From assembly GCF_001485475.2 (NCBI RefSeq), contig NZ_DF976999.1, forward strand, positions 1-64,000: a stretch of DNA of 64,000 bases. Direction: 5' to 3'. Source of the DNA: Tepidanaerobacter syntrophicus (lineage in GTDB: Bacteria > Bacillota > Thermosediminibacteria > Thermosediminibacterales > Tepidanaerobacteraceae). The notes beneath the pieces were generated by a model that was not told where the DNA came from, ran no database searches, and saw nothing but the letters and a program-made list of their open reading frames with translations. Each line of letters begins with the position of its first letter. Position 1 is the first letter of the stretch. Made by a program: the position numbers and the translations under genes. Positions 5,300 through 61,168 of the stretch are shown in pieces.

Positions 5300-6342
5300 A
5301 ATACCACCCCGCCTTTTCCTTTAACTGCCTTGCCTATTATCCATGCTTTCTCACCATTTTTCTGCAAGACATTTAAGACCTCATTTGCCGCATCGCAAGA
5401 TACCACAACCGCGTATCCTATACCCATATTAAAGGTGCGGTACATTTCCTTATCGCTTACTTGTCCTATTTTCTGTATCAAACTAAATACCGGTGGAATT
5501 TCCCATGAACCTTTTTTGATAGAAAAATGTATGCCTTCAGGCAGTATGCGTGGCAGATTTTCTATAATGCCGCCGCCGGTGATATGGGCCATGCCGTGAA
5601 TATCGAATTCGCTAAGAGATTCCACGGTTTTTACATAAATTTTGGTAGGCTCCAAAAGTTCCTCTCCCAAGGTTCTCCCAAGTTCTTCTATATAATCTGA
5701 TGATGAAAATTTGCCAATCTCAAAAAATACCTTTCTTGCCAGAGAAAAACCATTGCTGTGCAGGCCTGATGAGGCTATTCCTATAACTACGTCATCCTTT
5801 TCTATAGCTGAACCGTCTATAACCTTGCTTTTTTCAACAGCGCCCACGGCAAAACCCGCAATGTCATATTCGTCTTCGGCATACATACCAGGCATTTCTG
5901 CCGTCTCGCCGCCGATAAGCGCACAGCCGGCCATCTTGCAGCCGGCTGATACACCCTTCACTATATCGGCAACTTTTTCAGGTATGAGTTTGCCAAGCGC
6001 AATGTAATCTAGAAAAAACAGTGGCTCTGCTCCATGAACTATAATATCGTTTACGCACATTGCTACGCCGTCAATACCTACTGTATCGTGTTTATCCATC
6101 ATAAAGGCAATTTTAAGTTTTGTACCTACTCCGTCAGTGCCAGATACTAAAACTGGTTCCTTGTATTTTTTCGTATCCAGCTGAAAAAAACCTCCAAAAC
6201 TGCCTAAGTTTCCAAGCACACCCGGTCTGTAAGTAGAACGCACATGTTCTTTCATTAGTTCTACGGCACGATTGCCCGCATCTACATCTACTCCGGCATC
6301 CCTATAAGTTGCGCGCTTTATTTTAACACACACCCTTTCCAA
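5287..6342 (-). CDS. purM: Phosphoribosylformylglycinamidine cyclo-ligase (AIR synthetase)
   Basis: Closes the imidazole ring of FGAM with ATP to give [22 protein letters not shown] opens the family domain, and [14 protein letters not shown] and [11 protein letters not shown] carry the ATP- and substrate-binding motifs. [16 protein letters not shown] is also typical. The 351-residue reading starts with TTG at 6342, two bases after the purF stop. A GTG at 6333 is an alternative, but GGAAAGG is too close to it, so the start is uncertain by a few codons. Confidence 0.94.
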
Positions 6343-6344
6343 AT

Positions 6345-7748
6345 TTACCGTTTTTCAAATAGGTAACCCTTGCCTTCTCCAGGAACATCAATAGGATATT
6401 CACCGGAAAAACACCCTAAGCAGAATTTTTCCCGAGGAAATCCCGTCGATTTTACAAGTCCATCAAGGCTCAAATAACCCAAACTGTCGGCGCCGATATA
6501 CTCCCGTATTTCTTCAACTTTTCGCTGAGCACCTATGAGTTCCTTGCGGCTAGAAGTATCAATGCCAAAATAGCAGGAGTCTGTTACCGGGGGAGAACTT
6601 ATCCGCACATGCACTTCTTTTGCTCCGGCATCTTTTAGGATTTTTACAATAAGTCCGCTGGTAGTTCCCCTTACTATTGAATCATCAACCATTACTAGAC
6701 GTTTGCCCTGAACAACTTCTTTTATTGGATTAAGCTTGAGTTTGACCCCTATGGTTCTTAAGTTTTGTGTAGATTTTATAAATGTCCTGCCCACATAGTG
6801 ATTTTTGATAAGGCCTATGCCGAAAGGTATCCCCGACGCCTGGGCATAGCCCATAGCTGATATAGTACCTGAATCCGGAACACCTATTACAAGATCAGCG
6901 TCAGCAGGATGTTCCTGAGCTAAGAGTCTTCCTGCTTCTAGCCTTGCCATATGAACGTTTGTACCATCTATCGTGCTGTCAGGTCTTGCAAAATACACAA
7001 ATTCAAAAATACAAACCGCTTTTGAAGTTTCTTTATTTTTATTTATGCTTTGCAGGCCTTTATTATTAATTATTACTATTTCTCCGGGCTCTACATCTCT
7101 GATAAATTCAGCATCTATGGTATCTAAAGCACAGCTTTCAGAGGAAAGGACATATGAATCACCTTTTTTGCCAAGACAAAGCGGCCTTATGCCATTAGGG
7201 TCTCTCATACCTATAAGTGTATCCTCTGTCATTATTACAAGCGCATAAGAACCCTTCAGTTTACCCATACAGCTTTCTACCGCTTCAGCAATGTCGCCGG
7301 AATGAGCTTGTGCTATTAAAAATGCTATTATTTCACTGTCTATTTCTGTTTGAAATGCGACACCGTTTTCTTGGAGTTCTGTTCTAAGTTCTAAAGAGTT
7401 TACTAAATTGCCGTTGTGAGCAACTGCCAAGGACCCTCTTTTATACCGCACTACCAGCGGCTGAGAATTTATCAAAGTATTAGGCTCTGTCGTAGAATAT
7501 CTGACATGTCCTATGCCTATGCGCCCGGTAAGGTCATCTAGTATTTCATCGTTAAATACTTCAGAGGCAAGGCCCATTGCTTTATGATATCTTATTCCAT
7601 TTCCTGAGCTAACCGCTATCCCCGCACTTTCCTGGCCTCTGTGCTGTAGGGCATATAAGCCGTAAAATATATCGCGCCCCAGGCCGGCATTGTTTCGATT
7701 TTCATATATGCCCAATACACCGCAGGCTTCTTTTAATTCATCGCTCAT
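6345..7748 (-). CDS. purF: Amidophosphoribosyltransferase (first committed purine step)
   Basis: Makes phosphoribosylamine from PRPP and glutamine. Residue 9 is the cysteine nucleophile ([16 protein letters not shown]), preceded by a short propeptide as in the B. subtilis enzyme, which is cleaved to expose it. The glutaminase domain has [12 protein letters not shown], and the phosphoribosyltransferase site is [14 protein letters not shown]. Cysteines in [10 protein letters not shown] and [12 protein letters not shown] match the 4Fe-4S ligands of the oxygen-sensitive Bacillus type. It overlaps purL by 4 bp (ATGA). Confidence 0.96.
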
Positions 7749-9958
7749 TTTTTCATTCTTCCTTTAATAGCATTTTTAGAGACCTCTGCCATTTTTTTCA
7801 CGGGAACTTCAATATTGCCTACTGTTTTATCCTTCTGGTTTATGGTGAGCTTTAAGCTGTCGCCTTTTACAAAGCCAATTACGCTGACCTTTACACCTAG
7901 TTCTGATGCAAGCTTATTTAAAGTAGAAAGGTTGTCTTGTTTGAGGCTCATTATAATTCTTGATTGTCCTTCTCCAAAAAGCAATGTATCAGGTCTAAGA
8001 TTGCTTTCTATTTCTCCTTCAAAACCGATGTTTCCTGCTATACAGCATTCGGCAAGCGCTATGGCAAGACCGCCCTGAACAATATCATGTGCTGAATTTA
8101 CAAGGCCAAGCTGTATTGCCTTTAAGCAGCAATCCTGAACTTTTTTCTCTTTTTCGATATCTACTTTAGGAGCAGGACCTGCAACTATATCTAGTAATTC
8201 CTGTAGGTAAATTGATCCGCCAAGTTCATCAGTATTTTCACCCAGAAGTACTACCACATCTCCATCTTGCTTAAAGTCCATAGTGCAGTGTTTTTCTACA
8301 TCTTCTAAAACTCCGAGCATGCCGACAACAGGCGATGGATAAATAGCAGTGTGTTTGCCTTCGTTGTAGAAACTGACATTTCCGCTTATAACAGGAACAC
8401 CTAGTTTTCTTGCCGCATCTGACAAACCATCAACACATTTTTCGAATTGGTAATAAACTTCAGGTTTTTCAGGATTTCCAAAATTCAATCCATCAGTAAG
8501 CGCAACAGGTTTAGCGCCACTTACAACGAGATTTCTTGCAGCTTCTGCGACTATCTGCTTTCCTCCCTCATAAGGATCCAGATAACAGTAGTAACCATTG
8601 CCATCTATTGTAACTGCAATTCCGCGTTTTGTGCCTTTTATCCTGAGCACTGCAGCATCCGAACCCGGAGTAACTACAGTATTTGTGCCTACAGTTTGAT
8701 CGAATTGGCGATAAACTATAGCCTTGCTGGCAATATTCGGTAAATCCAGTAACTTAAGAAGTATATCATTTAAATCTGAAGGCACTGGGATTTTTGAAAA
8801 ATCTGTCTGTAATTTATCCAGATATTCCGGTCTTCTGCTTTCTCTTTTAACTATTGGCACACCACCTGCTAATGAAGCTGCGGGTACCTCGCCTACTACT
8901 TTACCATTTTCAAGTATTCTCAGCATACCGTCATCAGTTACGGTGCCAAATTTCACTGCGTCTAAATCCCATTTTTCAAAGATTTTCTTAACATCATCCT
9001 CGTGGCCTTTTTCAACAATTACCAGCATGCGCTCCTGGGACTCTGAGATCATTATTTCATAAGGCTTCATATCTTTGTCTCTTTGAGGAACTAAAGCCAC
9101 ATCGATTTCTATACCATTTCCTGCGCGGGCAGCTGTTTCGCTTGTTGATGAGACTACTCCGGCAGCACCCATATCCTGAACTCCTACAACCCATTCTTTT
9201 TGGAGAAGCTCCATGCATGCTTCCATAAGCTGTTTCTCTTTAAAAGGGTCGCCGACTTGCATTGGTGATCCCTGATCCTCATTGCCTTCCGTAAGCTCTC
9301 CGGATGCAAAACTTGCACCGTGCATGCCGTCGCGCCCTGTGGCTGCGCCGACTATCATAACGGAATTGCCTACTCCTGCCGCTTTTCCTAAAACTATTTT
9401 ATCGTGAGGTACTATACCAAGACACATAGCATTTACCAAAGGATTTTCTTCATAAGAGTCATCAAAATAAACTTCTCCGCCTACCGTCGGCACTCCTATG
9501 GCATTTCCATAATCACCGATGCCTGCTACAGCTTCTCTGAACAGATATTCTGCCCTGTCATCGTCGAGCTTTCCAAACCTTAAGGAATTTAGAAGCGCAA
9601 TAGGTCTTGCGCCCATTGTAAAAATATCCCTAAGCATGCCGCCTGCACCTGTAGCCGCGCCTTGATACGGATCTACTGCCGAGGGATGGTTATGGCTTTC
9701 TGTTTTCATAGCAATCGCGAGATTATCGCCGATATCAACTATTCCCGCATTCTCTCCAGGGCCCTGCAATACCTGCGGTCCTTCTGTAGGAAATCGTTTA
9801 AGCACTGCCTTTGAATTTTTATAGCTGCAGTGTTCAGACCACATTACGCTGTACAAACTTAGTTCAAGGTAATTAGGCTCTCTTTTGAGAGTTTTAACTA
9901 TTTCGTCAAATTCTAAATCAGTTAAACCAAGGTTCTTAGCTTCTTCTCTAGCAGTCAT
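7745..9958 (-). CDS. purL: FGAM synthetase large subunit, small type
   Basis: At 737 residues this is the short PurL that works in a complex with PurS and PurQ to convert FGAR to FGAM with ATP. Seen are [45 protein letters not shown] and [16 protein letters not shown], which form the two AIRS-like halves. It needs ammonia delivered by PurQ, which is the very next gene upstream (4-bp overlap) and lacks its catalytic Cys here, so PurL may rely on free ammonia or another source. Confidence 0.96.
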
Positions 9959-18696: not shown

Positions 18697-18771
18697 GCTG
18701 ATGTGGCTCAGTGGTAGAGCAGCGCACTCGTAATGCGCAGGTCGCCGGTTCGAATCCGGCCATCAGCTCCA
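18697..18771 (+). tRNA. tRNA-Thr (anticodon CGT), prophage integration target
   Basis: A 75-base cloverleaf with encoded CCA. The acceptor pairs gctgatg with catcagc, and the anticodon stem gcgca/tgcgc holds CGT (reads ACG). The 3' half from the anticodon loop onward belongs to the 48-bp att repeat. After integration, therefore, the 5' half is chromosomal and the 3' half was supplied by the phage. The T-loop has TTCGAA here and TTCAAA in the displaced copy at 61146. Confidence 0.95.
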
Positions 18772-18772
18772 T
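18725..18772. repeat. attL core of the prophage
   Basis: 48 bp from the tRNA-Thr anticodon loop to just past CCA, repeated at 61121-61168 with one mismatch (G at 18752, A at 61148). This is the classic tRNA-3'-end attachment site of tyrosine recombinases. Confidence 0.93.
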
Positions 18773-23908: not shown

Positions 23909-24096
23909 TATTTAGCACCCCCTTCTAATGCTTCCACTCTAGCTCTTAATTCTTCCACTTCCCCTGCAAGCTTTTCCATGTCTTCATAAAGCATAGCTAT
24001 GACTTCTAGTGTATCTGCCTGTATTTCTATTTTCTTTTTTTCTTCCTCTTCTTTTATCTCGCTGATTGGTTTCTCATTAATTATCTTAACAGCCAT
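23908..24096 (-). CDS. Short coiled-coil protein downstream of the DGR target
   Basis: 62 residues, acidic/lysine-rich (ISEIKEEEEKKKIEI), ending in a leucine-heptad stretch (MEKLAGEVEELRARVEALEG). Its ATG overlaps the target gene's stop (TAATG), implying coupled translation. Position suggests a tail-fibre assembly chaperone or a small structural part. No family recognised. Confidence 0.65.
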   Translation of the reverse strand: MAVKIINEKPISEIKEEEEKKKIEIQADTLEVIAMLYEDMEKLAGEVEELRARVEALEGGAK

Positions 24097-26342
24097 TATT
24101 TAAAAGCACCTCCATATCCACTTAAGTAGCTTTTTTCTGTTGCAGTTCCTCTTTCTATTATTACTTGTATTCCTACTCCCCATTTATTTGCAGTTTTTGT
24201 TTCATTTAAGAAATTGTGATGTCTGCCTATTAATACCTGATCAGTTGCGTCTTCCCAAGTAGGCTCATCATCAAATACATTGTTGCATACAAGGACCTTA
24301 AATATTGCTCCTTCAGCTAGTTTATAGGTTGGTGTCACCAGCACTTGGGTGCACATGTCGTCTGTTTCCTTTGCAAATAGGTGCATTAGTCTTGTTACTA
24401 CCCTGGTAAAGGTATAGTTTCTAATGGCCGTAGCTCCATCATCATCTGTTACTTCAATTCTAATATTGTGTTTTGTGCTATCTAGCTGTAGCCAGTCTAG
24501 TTTTTCCATTGTGTAATCATAAGTTTGGCCAGCAATTATTGGATAGGTTTCTTTTAGTTTGTCATCCAGGAATATTTTTGCTGTCATTTGACTTCCTTCA
24601 ATGTCCGTTGCACTGAACGATACTGTGAATGGTTCTGTTTTTTCTCCTAGATCCTGGTCGCTTCCTGAAATTACTGGAGCACTGTTGGTCCTCCTGAAAG
24701 TGTATCTTCTGTATGATATGCCACCTTTACCATCATCAGCGCGTATTTCTATAGTGTTTACTTCATTTAATGGTAGCTCATATAAAGTTTCACTGGATAT
24801 TTCCATGATTATATCCTCATTTTGTGGAGCATTGGATAGGTTCTTAATAGTGTTTCCATTCAGTTTTTCTGTAATTGTTACATTGTCTCCATCTGGATCA
24901 TGTACCTGATATACAACTGTAAAGCCTTCGTTTTTATCCCCTATACTGCCATCCACGCCACTAATTATAGGAGCTGCGTTCACTCTCTTGAATGTATATT
25001 TTCTTGTTGCGGCTCCCCCTTTATTGTCCATGACTGTAATAGTTATTGTGTTGGTTGCTCCCATTGTAAGTCGTGATAGTGTTTCAGTGTCAATTTCTAT
25101 ATTATAGGTAAAATTCCTTTCAGCATTATTGATTGTTCTTATTGTTTCATTATTTAATTTCTCTACAACTGTTAATATATCGTCTTCATCTGTGTCGTTT
25201 ACTTGGTATGAAATTTTAAATGGTTCCGTCTTGTCTCCAAGGTCCTGGTCTGTGCCAGAAATCAGAGGAGCAGAATTCAGAACTACAAAGCAGGTGCGGA
25301 ACCCGTAGGTGCTGAGGGCATTACCCGTATTGCTGTCGAAGTAAGCAAGGCCAGCATTGCCGTAGTCACAGTCGCCGCCACGACGGAACACAGGACCGGA
25401 AGAGCTGGGAAAGCCGGAGACCGCACTGTTACCCTGCCAGTTTTTCCATGATGTTGTTCCTTCCCCTTGCTGTGATGTTTCGTGGATCATCATTCCATCT
25501 GTTAGTCCTTTAGCTGCATTGTAGTTATTTGGTCTATCGTCAGTAGATCCTACTGGAAATACGTCTTTGTATTTGCTTTCTGCATCAACTAAAGCTTTGC
25601 AATATGTGTTTAGGTTTGCATGGCCATTGTTTACATAGCTGGCTACATACTCGTAAGTGTTACCTACCATGTCAAAAATACCTGTCATGTTTCCTGTAGT
25701 GGAGCTAGCTCCTGTATTATCTATTCCATTGAGTCCATATCCTGTCTTGTAGTCGCTGTTACTATTTCTATCTGGTCTTTGGTTGCCTATAGCCTTGGCC
25801 AGCATTGCTGCAGCTCCCCACTCGGAGTTCTTCATCATATGGGAATCTACTCCATCAGCGTTAGTGGTCAGCTGATTCTTTAAGTCTAGACAGTTAATGA
25901 ATATATCGTTTACGGTTATACTTCTCCATGCTACCTTATCTGGTTTAAATCCTGGTATACCACCATTGTCTAGGTCCTTATGGGCTGCATATTTTGCTAC
26001 CCAAATACCTGACAATTCTTGATCTCCGAATGTAAATGCAGGATGTTTTTTGCATGCTCTGCCGTCAATTGTATTGGTATTGTCGTTTATTCCATCGGAA
26101 AATCTTATTTTAATTTCTGGATCATCTGCGTATTGAATTGCCCTATAGGTAAACCTCGGTATCCATACCCAAAGGTTGCCCTTAGTGTCTTTTGCATTGG
26201 CCCATTTCTTCATGCTAGGGTTGTAGTTGTAATCCCAGTTTTCAACCGTTGTTTCCTGGAAAGTGTGTCCTGAAACATGGTTGACTGGTACCCAGCCAGG
26301 CGGTAAAATGGGCCTATTTGCTAGTCCTGAAACTAATGCCAT
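24096..26342 (-). CDS. DGR target: tail protein with FGE/C-type-lectin-like variable domain and three Ig-like domains
   Basis: About 748 residues. Residues 1-352 resemble the formylglycine-generating-enzyme/sulfatase-modifying fold, a C-type-lectin scaffold of many DGR targets: WVWIPRFTYRAIQY, MMKNSEWGAAAMLAKAI, FDMVGNTYEYVASYV and ending GFRTCFVV. The variable repeat covers about residues 304-352. Then come three tandem repeats of about 98 residues, each opening AP-x-ISG-x-D-x-x-x-G-x-K and closing Y-T-F-x-R, like Ig/cadherin-type tail domains (about 358-650), and a 100-residue C-terminal part. The start is the ATG at 26342, preceded by TTGGAGGG; a TTG five codons earlier overlaps that motif. 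It lies just after the tail-fibre genes, so it is probably the host-binding adhesin. Confidence 0.9.
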   Translation of the reverse strand: MALVSGLANRPILPPGWVPVNHVSGHTFQETTVENWDYNYNPSMKKWANAKDTKGNLWVWIPRFTYRAIQYADDPEIKIRFSDGINDNTNTIDGRACKKHPAFTFGDQELSGIWVAKYAAHKDLDNGGIPGFKPDKVAWRSITVNDIFINCLDLKNQLTTNADGVDSHMMKNSEWGAAAMLAKAIGNQRPDRNSNSDYKTGYGLNGIDNTGASSTTGNMTGIFDMVGNTYEYVASYVNNGHANLNTYCKALVDAESKYKDVFPVGSTDDRPNNYNAAKGLTDGMMIHETSQQGEGTTSWKNWQGNSAVSGFPSSSGPVFRRGGDCDYGNAGLAYFDSNTGNALSTYGFRTCFVVLNSAPLISGTDQDLGDKTEPFKISYQVNDTDEDDILTVVEKLNNETIRTINNAERNFTYNIEIDTETLSRLTMGATNTITITVMDNKGGAATRKYTFKRVNAAPIISGVDGSIGDKNEGFTVVYQVHDPDGDNVTITEKLNGNTIKNLSNAPQNEDIIMEISSETLYELPLNEVNTIEIRADDGKGGISYRRYTFRRTNSAPVISGSDQDLGEKTEPFTVSFSATDIEGSQMTAKIFLDDKLKETYPIIAGQTYDYTMEKLDWLQLDSTKHNIRIEVTDDDGATAIRNYTFTRVVTRLMHLFAKETDDMCTQVLVTPTYKLAEGAIFKVLVCNNVFDDEPTWEDATDQVLIGRHHNFLNETKTANKWGVGIQVIIERGTATEKSYLSGYGGAFK
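25289..25432 (-). repeat. DGR variable repeat (VR)
   Basis: 144 bp aligned without gaps to the template repeat. It differs at 19 positions, every one A in the coding strand of the template: 13 A-to-G, 4 A-to-T, 2 A-to-C. The 104 non-A positions are identical. All 19 changes fall in codon positions 1 or 2 and alter 15 residues (for example Asn to Val, Gly, Ser, Asp, Tyr, Leu, Thr). The unchanged GC-rich coding 3' end (GGGTTCCGCACCTGCT) is where the initiation-of-mutagenic-homology site is expected. Confidence 0.97.
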
Positions 26343-26378
26343 ATATAATCCCTCCAAGCTTCGTATATTTTAAATAAT

Positions 26379-26416
26379 AAAAGGCATCTTTCACCTAAAG
26401 CTACTAAATGCCTTTT
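26379..26416 (-). terminator. Hairpin between the template repeat and the target gene
   Basis: aaaaggcat (26379-26387) and atgcctttt (26408-26416) form a perfect 9-bp stem; the loop contains a small nested cttt/aaag hairpin. On the minus strand it is followed by ATTATTT. It may end the RT-TR transcript or process it before the target gene. A structural role in DGR function is also possible. Confidence 0.5.
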
Positions 26417-26526
26417 ACTGATTTTGTTTTTACCTCTTTATTATCTGAGGAAGGAATAGAGCTCCTTTGGTCTGGTAGCACCGTATAAAAGTCCGTAAAC
26501 CTTTATAATCTCGCTTAATTGACCAG

Positions 26527-26670
26527 AGCAGGTGCGGAACCCGTTGTTGCTGTTGGCATTACCCGTATTGTTGTTGAAGTAAGCAAGGCCAGCATTGTCG
26601 TTGTTATAGTTGCCGCCACGATGGAACACAGGATTGGAAGAGTTGGGAAAGTTGGAGTTCGCACTGTTAC
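26527..26670 (-). repeat. DGR template repeat (TR)
   Basis: 144 bp, starting 19 bases after the reverse transcriptase stop codon on the same strand. It contains 40 template-strand adenines, concentrated in AAC/AAT codons when read in the frame of the target (for example FNNNTGNANSNNGFRTC), so A mutagenesis gives wide residue choice without stop codons. It is transcribed into the RNA that is copied with adenine errors and used to rewrite the VR. A short open frame across it is not a gene. Confidence 0.97.
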
Positions 26671-26688
26671 AGCTCTATCCCTACTAGT

Positions 26689-27714
26689 TTATTTGTTTTT
26701 TACTAATACAAAATTCTTAAACATATGATCTATAAGTAAATAGCTGTCGGCATGCTTTGCATACCCTTTCCAGCTATTTATAGACCTTTTTATCTCCTCT
26801 AATGTCATTTCTCCATTAGCATATTTCCTTTGATATGCTTTCAATTTTCTTTTCATTTTCTTTTTACTGCAATCTCTTATTTTCATATGAGTTGACCATA
26901 TTTTGTAACCACAAAAATTGACTCCATTTTTAACCGGAAATATTTGCGTCTTTTTATTTAGTTTAAGTTTCAGCCTCTCATCTAAAAATATTATAATCTC
27001 CTTTAGGGCCTGTTGGGCCTCTTCTTTGTTTTTAAATATTAGGACCCAGTCATCCATATATCTAACATACATCTTTACTTTCAGTTTGTGTTTTATGAAC
27101 ATATCTAACTGATGTAGATATAAATTAGCAAACCATTGGGATGTATATGATCCTACTGGTATTCCTGGATCCTCTGTTGTGTCTAATATAACTTTTGTAA
27201 GCCACAAAACTTCTGGATCTTTTATTTTACTGGCCACAATGTTATAAAGTATTGTATGGTCTATGCTGAAGAAGTAGCTCTTAATGTCGCCTTTAAGAAT
27301 ATAAGGTCTTTCCCATTTTGCTTCTGCAGTTTTTAAGAATTTTTGCACTCTATATGCTGCTCCATGCATTCCTTTGCCTTCAATACATGCATAGGAGTCA
27401 TATATGAATGCTTTCCCAAATATAGGGATGATAAAATTCTTTACATACCACTGGTGAATTACTCTATCTCTATAAGGGGCTGCCTTAATAAGTCTTTTCT
27501 TAGGCTCGTAAATAGTAAACTCCAAGTATTCTCCTGGAGCATATGTTTTATTTTTTAATTCGTTATACAGTTTTATGATATTGCCTTCTAGATTCATTTC
27601 AAATTCAATTACATCTTTTCTAAATCTTTTCCCCTTTTTAGCGCTCTGATGGGCATTTAATAAGCTGGAGAATGTTAATGCTGATTCGAATAAATTCTTA
27701 TATGTTTTTGCCAT
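26689..27714 (-). CDS. DGR reverse transcriptase
   Basis: 341 residues with the RT palm and fingers: ILKGDIKSYFFSID (first catalytic Asp, about 143), GIPVGSYTSQWFANLYLHQLD (about 184-204) and VRYMDDWVLIF with YMDD at 219-222. The stretch GSYTSQ in motif 4, where retroviruses and group II introns have a QG, is a recognised mark of DGR reverse transcriptases. There is no maturase or endonuclease domain. Copies TR RNA with random bases opposite adenines. It overlaps avd by 17 bp, so the two are coupled. Confidence 0.96.
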   Translation of the reverse strand: MAKTYKNLFESALTFSSLLNAHQSAKKGKRFRKDVIEFEMNLEGNIIKLYNELKNKTYAPGEYLEFTIYEPKKRLIKAAPYRDRVIHQWYVKNFIIPIFGKAFIYDSYACIEGKGMHGAAYRVQKFLKTAEAKWERPYILKGDIKSYFFSIDHTILYNIVASKIKDPEVLWLTKVILDTTEDPGIPVGSYTSQWFANLYLHQLDMFIKHKLKVKMYVRYMDDWVLIFKNKEEAQQALKEIIIFLDERLKLKLNKKTQIFPVKNGVNFCGYKIWSTHMKIRDCSKKKMKRKLKAYQRKYANGEMTLEEIKRSINSWKGYAKHADSYLLIDHMFKNFVLVKNK

Positions 27715-28072
27715 TCCTAGTTGATTTTATCCATCCACCTAATATTTTTCCTATTTCATCCAGCCTCCTAGCCCATTCGATATAGTTTTTATTAGATATA
27801 TACTTATATTTATGAGCTAATCTTACTAAGACTTTTTGTAGCTGCACTTCTGCATCTATCATATTGAGCATTTCTAATCTTTTCTGACTATTTCCATATA
27901 TTTTATTAGCTCTTAAAATATATTTAAGTGTATCAAACATGCTGTTTTTAAAACTAGCTGCCATAGCATACTTTTCACTTTTGGGGAATTTCCTTATTCT
28001 ATCATAGGCGTATTCAATCAAATCTACATACTTTTGGTAGATTAGGAGCTCTTTCCTCTGTGTCTGACCCAT
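27698..28072 (-). CDS. avd: DGR accessory variability determinant (Avd), four-helix bundle
   Basis: 124 residues, basic and all-helical: MGQTQRKELLIYQKYVDLIE, FPKSEKYAMAASFKNSMFDT, LNMIDAEVQLQKVLVRLAHK and WARRLDEIGKILGGWIKS. This matches the S23-like four-helix bundle of Avd proteins, which form a pentamer and bind the RT and template RNA. Start ATG at 28072 follows AGGGGTG; a GTG three codons upstream overlaps it. Placed directly before the RT. Confidence 0.88.
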   Translation of the reverse strand: MGQTQRKELLIYQKYVDLIEYAYDRIRKFPKSEKYAMAASFKNSMFDTLKYILRANKIYGNSQKRLEMLNMIDAEVQLQKVLVRLAHKYKYISNKNYIEWARRLDEIGKILGGWIKSTRNGKNI

Positions 28073-28091
28073 GATGAACACCCCTTCTGTC

Positions 28092-28316
28092 TTAGCGAAT
28101 GCATCTCTTGTTTCTTATCTCGTCTATTGTTTCTCTTTGGCCAGAATACTCAAAGCCAAAATCATTTATAATAATGTATTCCTCTTTTCCTTCATAAGTA
28201 GTCCCTTTGATGACTAATTTATCCTGATTGCATAGTTCGCATACAGGCAATAACTCTACAAATAGATTGGATATTATGCATGAAAGTTGGTCTTTTGTGC
28301 AAGCGAACTTCTCCAT
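28092..28316 (-). CDS. Hypothetical 74-residue protein between the collar fibre and avd
   Basis: Not recognised. It has a CELC pair (LLPVCELCNQDKLVIKG) and a beta-rich C-terminal half (KEEYIIINDFGFEYSG). It sits 2 bp after the collar-fibre gene and 20 bp before avd, so it may belong to the tail module or be a DGR accessory. The frame is coding-like and cleanly packed between neighbours. Confidence 0.55.
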   Translation of the reverse strand: MEKFACTKDQLSCIISNLFVELLPVCELCNQDKLVIKGTTYEGKEEYIIINDFGFEYSGQRETIDEIRNKRCIR

Positions 28317-59845: not shown

Positions 59846-60997
59846 TTGCGTGGGCATATCAGAAAAAGAGGCAAAAAATGGTGCGCTATAGTAGATGTAG
59901 GCAATGATCCAGTAACCGGTAAACGAAAGCAAAAATGGTTAAGCGGCTTCAATACAAAAAAAGAAGCCGAAGCTGCTTTGGCAGAATTTATACAGCAATA
60001 TAATTCTGGGAGCTATATCGACCATAAAGGTATTACTGTTTCCGATTATTTGGACAAGTGGTTCCATGACTATGTAGAGATTAAACTTGCTCCTAGGACA
60101 CAAAGTCGATATTTAGGAATAATTAATAATTATTTTATCCCTGAGTTTGGGCATATAAAATTAAGCGATTTAAAGCCATTCCACATTCAGAACCATTATT
60201 CAAAGGCAATAGAAAATCTTTCCCATGCTACAGTTCTATATCATCATCGGGTTATACATAAAGCTCTAAAAATGGCCGTTAAATGGCAATATCTTGTGCA
60301 TAATCCCGCTGATAATGTTGAGCCACCCAGTGCTAAAAGAAAAGATTTTACCATATTATCTATAGAACAAATTGATACACTTTTACAATATTTAAAAGAA
60401 AAAAATCATGTTTTATATATACCCATTGTTTTAGCAATAATGACAGGCATGAGGCGTGGAGAAATATGCGGACTCCAATGGCAAGATGTTGACCTAGATT
60501 CAGGGCTAATCCAAATCAAACACCAATTACAGAGAATTAATGGTGAGTTAATCCTAAGAGAGACAAAAACGGCCGGCAGTCGCCGACCAATCGCATTGGA
60601 TGATATCACTATATCACTTTTAAAAGCTCATAGACAAGAGCAAAGAGAAAACAGAATTTTTTTTGGCCCCGCATATCAAATTGAAAATTTTGACTACGTT
60701 TGCACCTGGCCAGATGGCAAACTTATTGACCCAGACTATATAACCCATTCTTTCTCCAAGATATTAAAAACATTGAACTTGCCGTCCGTTCGTTTTCATG
60801 ATTTGAGGCACACCAGTGCAACTATGCTTTTAAAAGCCGGTATAAATCCGAAAGTCGTGAGTGAGCGCCTAGGCCACACAGATATTAGAATTACCCTCAA
60901 TACTTATTCTCATGTTTTGCCAAATATGCAAAAAGAGGCTGCGCAAAAACTTGCCGAGAATGTCTTTATAAAAACTGCAAACAAATTGCAAACATAA
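59846..60997 (+). CDS. Tyrosine recombinase integrase
   Basis: 383 residues, starting with TTG. An AP2-like arm-binding N-terminus (GHIRKRGKKWCAIVDVGN, WLSGFNTKKEAEAALAEFIQ), SAM-like core (ITVSDYLDKWFHDYVEIKLA) and catalytic domain: Arg in MTGMRRGEICGLQW (203/204), Lys in ETKTAGSRRP (241), His/Arg in FHDLRHTSATML (318, 321), His in GHTDIRITLNTYSH (344) and the nucleophile Tyr354. Located 124 bp from attR, as expected. Confidence 0.96.
   Translation: MRGHIRKRGKKWCAIVDVGNDPVTGKRKQKWLSGFNTKKEAEAALAEFIQQYNSGSYIDHKGITVSDYLDKWFHDYVEIKLAPRTQSRYLGIINNYFIPEFGHIKLSDLKPFHIQNHYSKAIENLSHATVLYHHRVIHKALKMAVKWQYLVHNPADNVEPPSAKRKDFTILSIEQIDTLLQYLKEKNHVLYIPIVLAIMTGMRRGEICGLQWQDVDLDSGLIQIKHQLQRINGELILRETKTAGSRRPIALDDITISLLKAHRQEQRENRIFFGPAYQIENFDYVCTWPDGKLIDPDYITHSFSKILKTLNLPSVRFHDLRHTSATMLLKAGINPKVVSERLGHTDIRITLNTYSHVLPNMQKEAAQKLAENVFIKTANKLQT
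60977..60996. other. Candidate integrase arm-type sites beside attR
   Basis: gcaaacaaa (60977-60985) and gcaaacata (60988-60996), the same word as at 18816 and 18856. They lie inside the final integrase codons and just before attR. Confidence 0.45.
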
Positions 60998-61120: not shown

Positions 61121-61168
61121 CACTCGTAATGCGCAGGTCGCCGGTTCAAATCCGGCCATCAGCTCCAT
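61121..61168. repeat. attR core (displaced 3' half of tRNA-Thr)
   Basis: 48 bp identical to attL except A for G at 61148. The 5' half of a tRNA is absent (tacctaaaca precedes it), so this is not a functional gene. It marks the right end of the prophage and is the former chromosomal 3' part of the tRNA gene. Confidence 0.93.

Follow-up and report, generated by a model that had tools for sequence, protein, structure and literature searches.

A diversity-generating retroelement with an internal variable repeat in a prophage of Tepidanaerobacter syntrophicus

How does a diversity-generating retroelement (DGR) recognize its target when the segment to be rewritten lies in the middle of a gene? This question is raised by a locus in a 64,000-nucleotide stretch of the Tepidanaerobacter syntrophicus genome (assembly GCF_001485475.2, contig NZ_DF976999.1, positions 1 to 64,000; hereafter, the window). 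A C-terminal variable repeat (VR) in the target protein is near-universal among DGRs, though not strictly defining (PMC8144416), and in the loci with an accessory variability determinant (Avd) examined here the VR normally ends 2–5 codons ahead of the stop. The VR of the window is internal, with 396 residues of an Ig-like tail behind it, and this layout is unusual for a DGR. Based on our sequence analysis, we consider it highly probable that the locus is a complete Avd-type DGR of an intact contractile-tailed prophage, which would diversify the lectin domain of a tentaclin-like adhesin, with the template repeat (TR) and the structured RNA RT-14 forming one module and the direction of transfer being set by an array of spaced triplets behind the VR.

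The TR and VR can be aligned without gaps over 144 bp, the coding strand being the minus strand. All 19 substitutions between them fall on TR adenines (19 of 40) and none on the 104 other positions; they comprise 13 A-to-G, 4 A-to-T and 2 A-to-C changes. The placement of the repeats and these counts, which a preliminary description of the locus had given, were reproduced to the base. By chance, all 19 would fall on adenines with a hypergeometric P of 5.4e-13. The substitutions occupy codon positions 1 (9) and 2 (10) of 15 codons, alter all 15 residues and create no stop. The preliminary description was right about this pattern as well, but it is not separate evidence of selection: because the 21 unaltered TR adenines are likewise confined to positions 1 and 2, it reflects the design of the TR. 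No second TR or VR was revealed across the genome, which holds one of each, and two genomes of the same genus lack the RT-14 element. Independent relatives with the same layout (loci L007, L015, and L016 of our comparison) differ at 20 of 33, 18 of 34, and 13 of 31 TR adenines and at 0, 1, and 1 other positions, respectively. Loci L008 and L009, compared for VR variation between copies of one phage, were identical over their shared overlap, both being truncated. With zero non-adenine differences in the window, recent retrohoming is plausible.

The proteins adjoining the TR support the same assignment. The DGR-type GSYTSQ and YMDD motifs of the reverse transcriptase (RT) were confirmed, and the profiles that it matches are given in Table 1. 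Among solved structures, its best relative over the full length was the DGR RT of the Bordetella phage BPP-1 (8ub7, E 1e-57), with the best group II RT at 3e-14. The neighboring protein, previously described as Avd-like, scored above the curated cut-offs of both NCBIfam NF033474 (97.9 bits; cut-off 80) and Pfam bAvd (93.2; cut-off 40); an alternative GTG start of its gene is possible at 28081. Together with the TR/VR pair, the lectin target and contractile tail genes (Baseplate_J, Tail_P2_I, tail sheath), they bear out the earlier view of a complete DGR in a P2-like tail locus. The RT-14 RNA, the internal position of the VR and the array behind it had escaped that description. As a DGR, the element is an ordinary member of a familiar class, and it counts as a variant on account of its layout.

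The genes are arranged in the order Avd-RT-TR-RT-14-target. Behind the VR, Big_9 (Pfam) repeats were found at residues 356–451 and onward, and their Ig-like strands were modeled mostly at pLDDT 70–90. A model of the full target from 6 sequences was good for the Ig domains and useless for the lectin domain; a model of the N-terminal part from 18 sequences (mean pLDDT 55) was usable for the first 186 residues, but not for the VR. With this low-confidence model, the sole Foldseek match was a DGR variable protein, TaqVP (5vf4, E 3e-4). The lectin domain is homologous to FGE-sulfatase-domain DGR targets, with a Pfam score of its own (14.3) under the cut-off of 23.3. The anchor-like C-terminal part shows 33% identity over 277 aa with the corresponding part of the phage nd12 tentaclin. 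According to these comparisons, the target is a predicted tentaclin-like adhesin with an FGE-type lectin domain. It shares with the tentaclins of phages nd4 and nd12 (PMC10743442) an N-terminal lectin domain with an internal VR, a chain of Ig-like domains and a gene position downstream of the RT. It differs from them in the type of lectin domain, which is DUF6273 in the tentaclins, and in its length of 748 aa (966–968 aa in complete relatives), compared with the 313–649 aa reported for them. The FGE/SUMF1-type C-lectin targets of BalMu-1, VP58.5 and YPCBV-1, as well as TaqVP, also have a homologous lectin domain with the VR at its end, but their genes stop 2–5 codons past the VR, whereas Ig domains follow it in the window. 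This extension is common to the window clade (the window, L007, L014, L015, L016, and L024), in which from at least 178 (L007, at a contig end) to about 600 Ig-like residues lie past the VR. The only other clear internal VR among the loci examined was that of the nd12 tentaclin. In PHROGs, proteins related to the target are annotated as “Hoc-like head decoration,” although the gene comes after the tail fiber genes.

The RNA beside the TR was identified by the covariance model RF02921, which it matches in full length and well above the gathering score of 48.1; it starts at the 3′ end of the TR and adjoins the RT gene. The Rfam record calls this family just RT-14 RNA and carries no DGR label. 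RT-14 only was searched for, first in 60 relatives and afterwards in some 400 genomes from the phylum, and the surroundings of the matches were retrieved. The distance from the RT-14 start to the TR end was 0–1 nt, or 4 nt in the case of L041, in 14 loci with the window among them; most of the 14 had been found through RT-14 alone. Among measurable pairs, the exceptions were L014 and L040; L043 and L008 have no measurable TR/VR pair and stand outside this count. The RT motif lies about 740–800 nt downstream of the RT-14 start in most loci and about 620 nt upstream in the window clade; thus, RT-14 accompanies the TR and not the RT. Compensatory changes were detected in 21 of 26 predicted RT-14 pairs (16 sequences), and the arrangement of TR and RT-14 recurs in phage BalMu-1; a search of the TR-RT-14 DNA against phage records gave no match. 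In BPP-1, the spacer at the equivalent place recruits the RT-Avd complex and carries the priming adenine (PMC12875486). That spacer matches RF03022 (Phage_DGR) but gives no RT-14 hit up to E 10, and the RF03022 model gave no match in the window. The covariance models thus reveal no homology of the two RNAs, and a common role is backed by position and context only. By this analogy of position, RT-14 is very probably the priming and recruitment (spacer, Sp) RNA of these DGRs.

Two of the RT-14 loci had further peculiarities. In L040, RT-14 occurs twice in tandem at a distance of about 590 nt (about 5495–5643 and 6088–6236), each copy preceded by a TR-like sequence, with no RT recognized in 12 kb. 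In L014 (Desulfotomaculum copahuensis; TR 7047–7188, VR 8315–8456), 18 of 28 mismatches are at non-adenine positions, and the VR does not stem from the adjoining TR. Its match to the L015 TR is slightly closer; apparently, the L014 TR was replaced at some time since the latest retrohoming.

A GC-rich hairpin with a GRNA loop 3′ of the VR is common in phage DGRs, though not strictly defining, and is required by BPP-1 (PMC3240598). We found such a hairpin after 49 of 86 Avd-positive VRs, but no hairpin with a stem of at least 6 was present in the 70 nt past the VR of the window. A 6-bp inverted repeat seen in relatives is not conserved in the window, and an equally good one occurs in 11% of random windows. 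It could be assumed that the missing hairpin ended retrohoming, leaving a real but inactive DGR with an old VR that no longer changes. The occurrence of stale pairs in the clade, such as the L014 VR that mismatches its own TR, agrees with this. We nevertheless regard inactivity as unlikely, given 0 of 104 non-adenine differences and the intact reading frames of the RT, Avd and target in an intact prophage. Furthermore, L007, L015, and L016 share the layout and lack the GRNA hairpin, yet their TR/VR differences are nearly confined to adenines; the hairpin seems to be dispensable in the window clade.

What follows the VR instead is an array of YTG triplets in heptad spacing. The array was defined as a chain of at least three CTG or TTG at a spacing of 7–8 nt; the idea arose from the first loci compared and was then tested also on loci retrieved afterwards. 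It was found after 64 of the 86 distinct Avd-positive VRs (53 with at least four units), against 3.5% and 0.3% in shuffles, and after none of 80 Avd-less VRs. Elsewhere around the 86 Avd-positive pairs it was nearly absent: one case downstream of the TR, none in the upstream flank of the VR, none on the reverse complement, and one 100 nt farther. CTG pairs at a lag of 7 or 8 numbered 151, compared with 4.7 at other lags, and TG spacings in the Avd-positive flanks peaked at 7, 8, 14, 15, and 22 nt. Since the array is present in 16 of the 22 groups formed by clustering the RTs at 60% identity, it is not one recent copy. Its place is between the VR end and the hairpin, usually 2–3 nt before the stem. 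Taken together, these sequence patterns suggest that the array is probably the mark of the recipient copy in Avd-type DGRs.

The array could also be real but read outside retrohoming, for example as a signal acting in the transcription or on the mRNA of phage tail genes. This would be compatible with intergenic tandem TAACTGA heptamers of Beggiatoaceae, which have the same 7-nt CTG period and no known function. Still, such a role appears improbable for an element with a fixed place between the VR end and the hairpin, found behind VRs and not TRs, and lying in the window within a gene and not at its end. The published TAACTGA repeats with this period occur in Beggiatoaceae, Cyanobacteria and Bacteroidetes (PMC4679880).

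A still weaker alternative gives the CTG triplets no role as DNA: they would simply reflect shared ancestry or the peptide LNSAPLIS, with which the Ig domain begins. Nearly the same peptide opens two other Ig repeats (aa 455 and 553), so the protein does favor these residues, but those two repeats carry no array. At conserved residues of codons 352–364, codon identity with the relatives is 49/55 (0.89), whereas it is 0.33–0.44 elsewhere outside the VR; across codons 291–351 it is 0.54. In other DGRs, an array with equal spacing falls past the stop codon, and the array is VR- and strand-specific throughout. All this makes a peptide by-product quite improbable; in the window gene, the array appears to be kept as DNA inside the reading frame through codon choice.

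Finally, an RT from a group II intron or a defense system beside a TR/VR pair duplicated by chance or by gene conversion can be dismissed as extremely improbable: although the RT matches PADLOC RT models and NCBIfam group_II_RT_mat (133.9 bits), the latter score falls well short of the 300-bit cut-off, the best solved relative is the BPP-1 RT, an Avd gene is adjacent, and conversion does not yield an adenine bias of 19/19.

Several observations weigh against the reading that we prefer. The hairpin required in BPP-1 is absent from the window, and the structure model of the N-terminal domain is weak. The flanks of 22 of the 86 Avd-positive VRs remain under the array threshold, although several contain degenerate heptads, such as CCG every 7 nt in L086 or TTG/TAG/CTG in phage 1F273. 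BPP-1 itself has no full array, but only a CTG-N4-TTG pair in the VR copy of its initiation of mutagenic homing (IMH) element; the TR copy of the IMH lacks the CTG of this pair. The link between the array and Avd amounts to two independent contrasts in the RT tree, both agreeing, and the notion of many independent co-occurrences was rejected on this basis. For these reasons, we put forward only tentatively, as a possibility that we would not favor at present, that the array is a general target-recognition element of Avd-type DGRs, in which four or five spaced triplets would be read by a ring protein, likeliest the Avd pentamer, and would suffice without a hairpin, thus permitting hypermutation of an internal segment. 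Avd-less DGRs may use another recipient mark. Many Avd-less targets (L161–L229) end about 22–26 residues past the VR; their tails are often alike, and they have neither the array nor the GRNA hairpin. Guo et al. (PMC3240598) mention no direct repeats at the array site. Neither the array nor the assignment of RT-14 to DGRs was found in the open-access literature; the main subscription papers were not covered, and the novelty of both is provisional.

Compared with the BPP-1 DGR (mtd-avd-TR-brt), the element of the window has a similar RT (36% identity), an Avd, an adenine-biased TR/VR pair, a structured RNA directly 3′ of the TR and a phage surface lectin as its target. It differs in its gene order, in its internal VR, which stands at the gene end in BPP-1, in the RNA family (RT-14 instead of RF03022), and in having a YTG array in place of the IMH-hairpin pair, without the GRNA hairpin. 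In the nd12 tentaclin the array differs from that of the window and reads CTT-CTT-CTT-CTG.

The prophage that carries the DGR is flanked by 48-bp direct att repeats, which match at 47 of 48 positions and lie in the 3′ half of a tRNA-Thr gene. Its genes for integrase, terminase, portal, head, sheath, tape measure, baseplate and lysis, with a contractile, P2-like tail, indicate an intact prophage integrated in tRNA-Thr. Just upstream of Avd, at 28092–28316, lies the gene of a small protein assigned to PHROG 21058, a family of unknown function; such a protein is also encoded next to the DGR of phage nd12 (L062, 5059–5442).

Table 1. Coordinates of the DGR components and of the prophage in the window.
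Feature	Position	Strand	Description
Prophage carrying the DGR	18725–61168		about 42.4 kb; att repeats 18725–18772 and 61121–61168; integrase 59846–60997
Target gene	24096–26342	minus	748 aa; N-terminal FGE/C-type-lectin domain (about 1–352) with VR, Ig-like repeats, C-terminal anchor-like domain
YTG heptad array	25256–25288	minus	TTG-CTG-CTG-CTG-CTG; spacings 8-7-8-7; in the reading frame, immediately 3′ of VR; proposed recipient mark
VR	25289–25432	minus	codons ~304–352 of 748, internal to target gene
RT-14 structured RNA	26376–26528	minus	Rfam RF02921, 85.3 bits, full model; proposed DGR spacer (Sp) RNA
TR	26527–26670	minus	intergenic, directly past RT stop; 19/40 A and 0/104 non-A differences from VR
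DGR reverse transcriptase	26689–27714	minus	341 aa; GSYTSQ and YMDD; RVT_1; PHROG 1423; best solved relative BPP-1 bRT 8ub7
Avd	27698–28072	minus	124 aa from ATG at 28072; NCBIfam NF033474; Pfam bAvd; PHROG 3206 “Avd protein of DGR”

The following scheme would combine these features. The TR and RT-14 would act as one RNA module, in which RT-14, by its position and in analogy to the Sp RNA of BPP-1, would recruit the RT and Avd and prime cDNA synthesis back into the TR. As the substitution pattern shows, random bases are placed in the cDNA opposite TR adenines, and this cDNA would then replace the VR. The direction from TR to VR would be set because the array follows the VR copy only. In most relatives the GRNA-loop hairpin comes after the array, and both are non-coding, while in the window the array would act from within the reading frame, kept by codon choice and without a hairpin. 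Avd is a pentamer in BPP-1, and the TRAP ring reads spaced triplets; our preferred guess is that the array is read by such a ring, possibly the Avd pentamer, with one triplet per subunit and flexible spacers.

The integration process of DGRs is incompletely understood (PMC12875486), and the field still asks how the target is found and why information passes only from the TR into the VR. The array offers a concrete, strand-specific element that stands after VRs and not after TRs, and the window, with an array inside a gene and no hairpin, is a natural test case. Roux et al. (PMC8144416) proposed that VRs lie at gene ends because the cis elements need non-coding DNA; here, the cis element appears to be written in codons. 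The assignment of RT-14 to DGRs would provide a searchable RNA handle for the DGRs of Firmicutes. If our interpretation is true, the array would show what is needed downstream of an internal gene segment for a DGR to target it.
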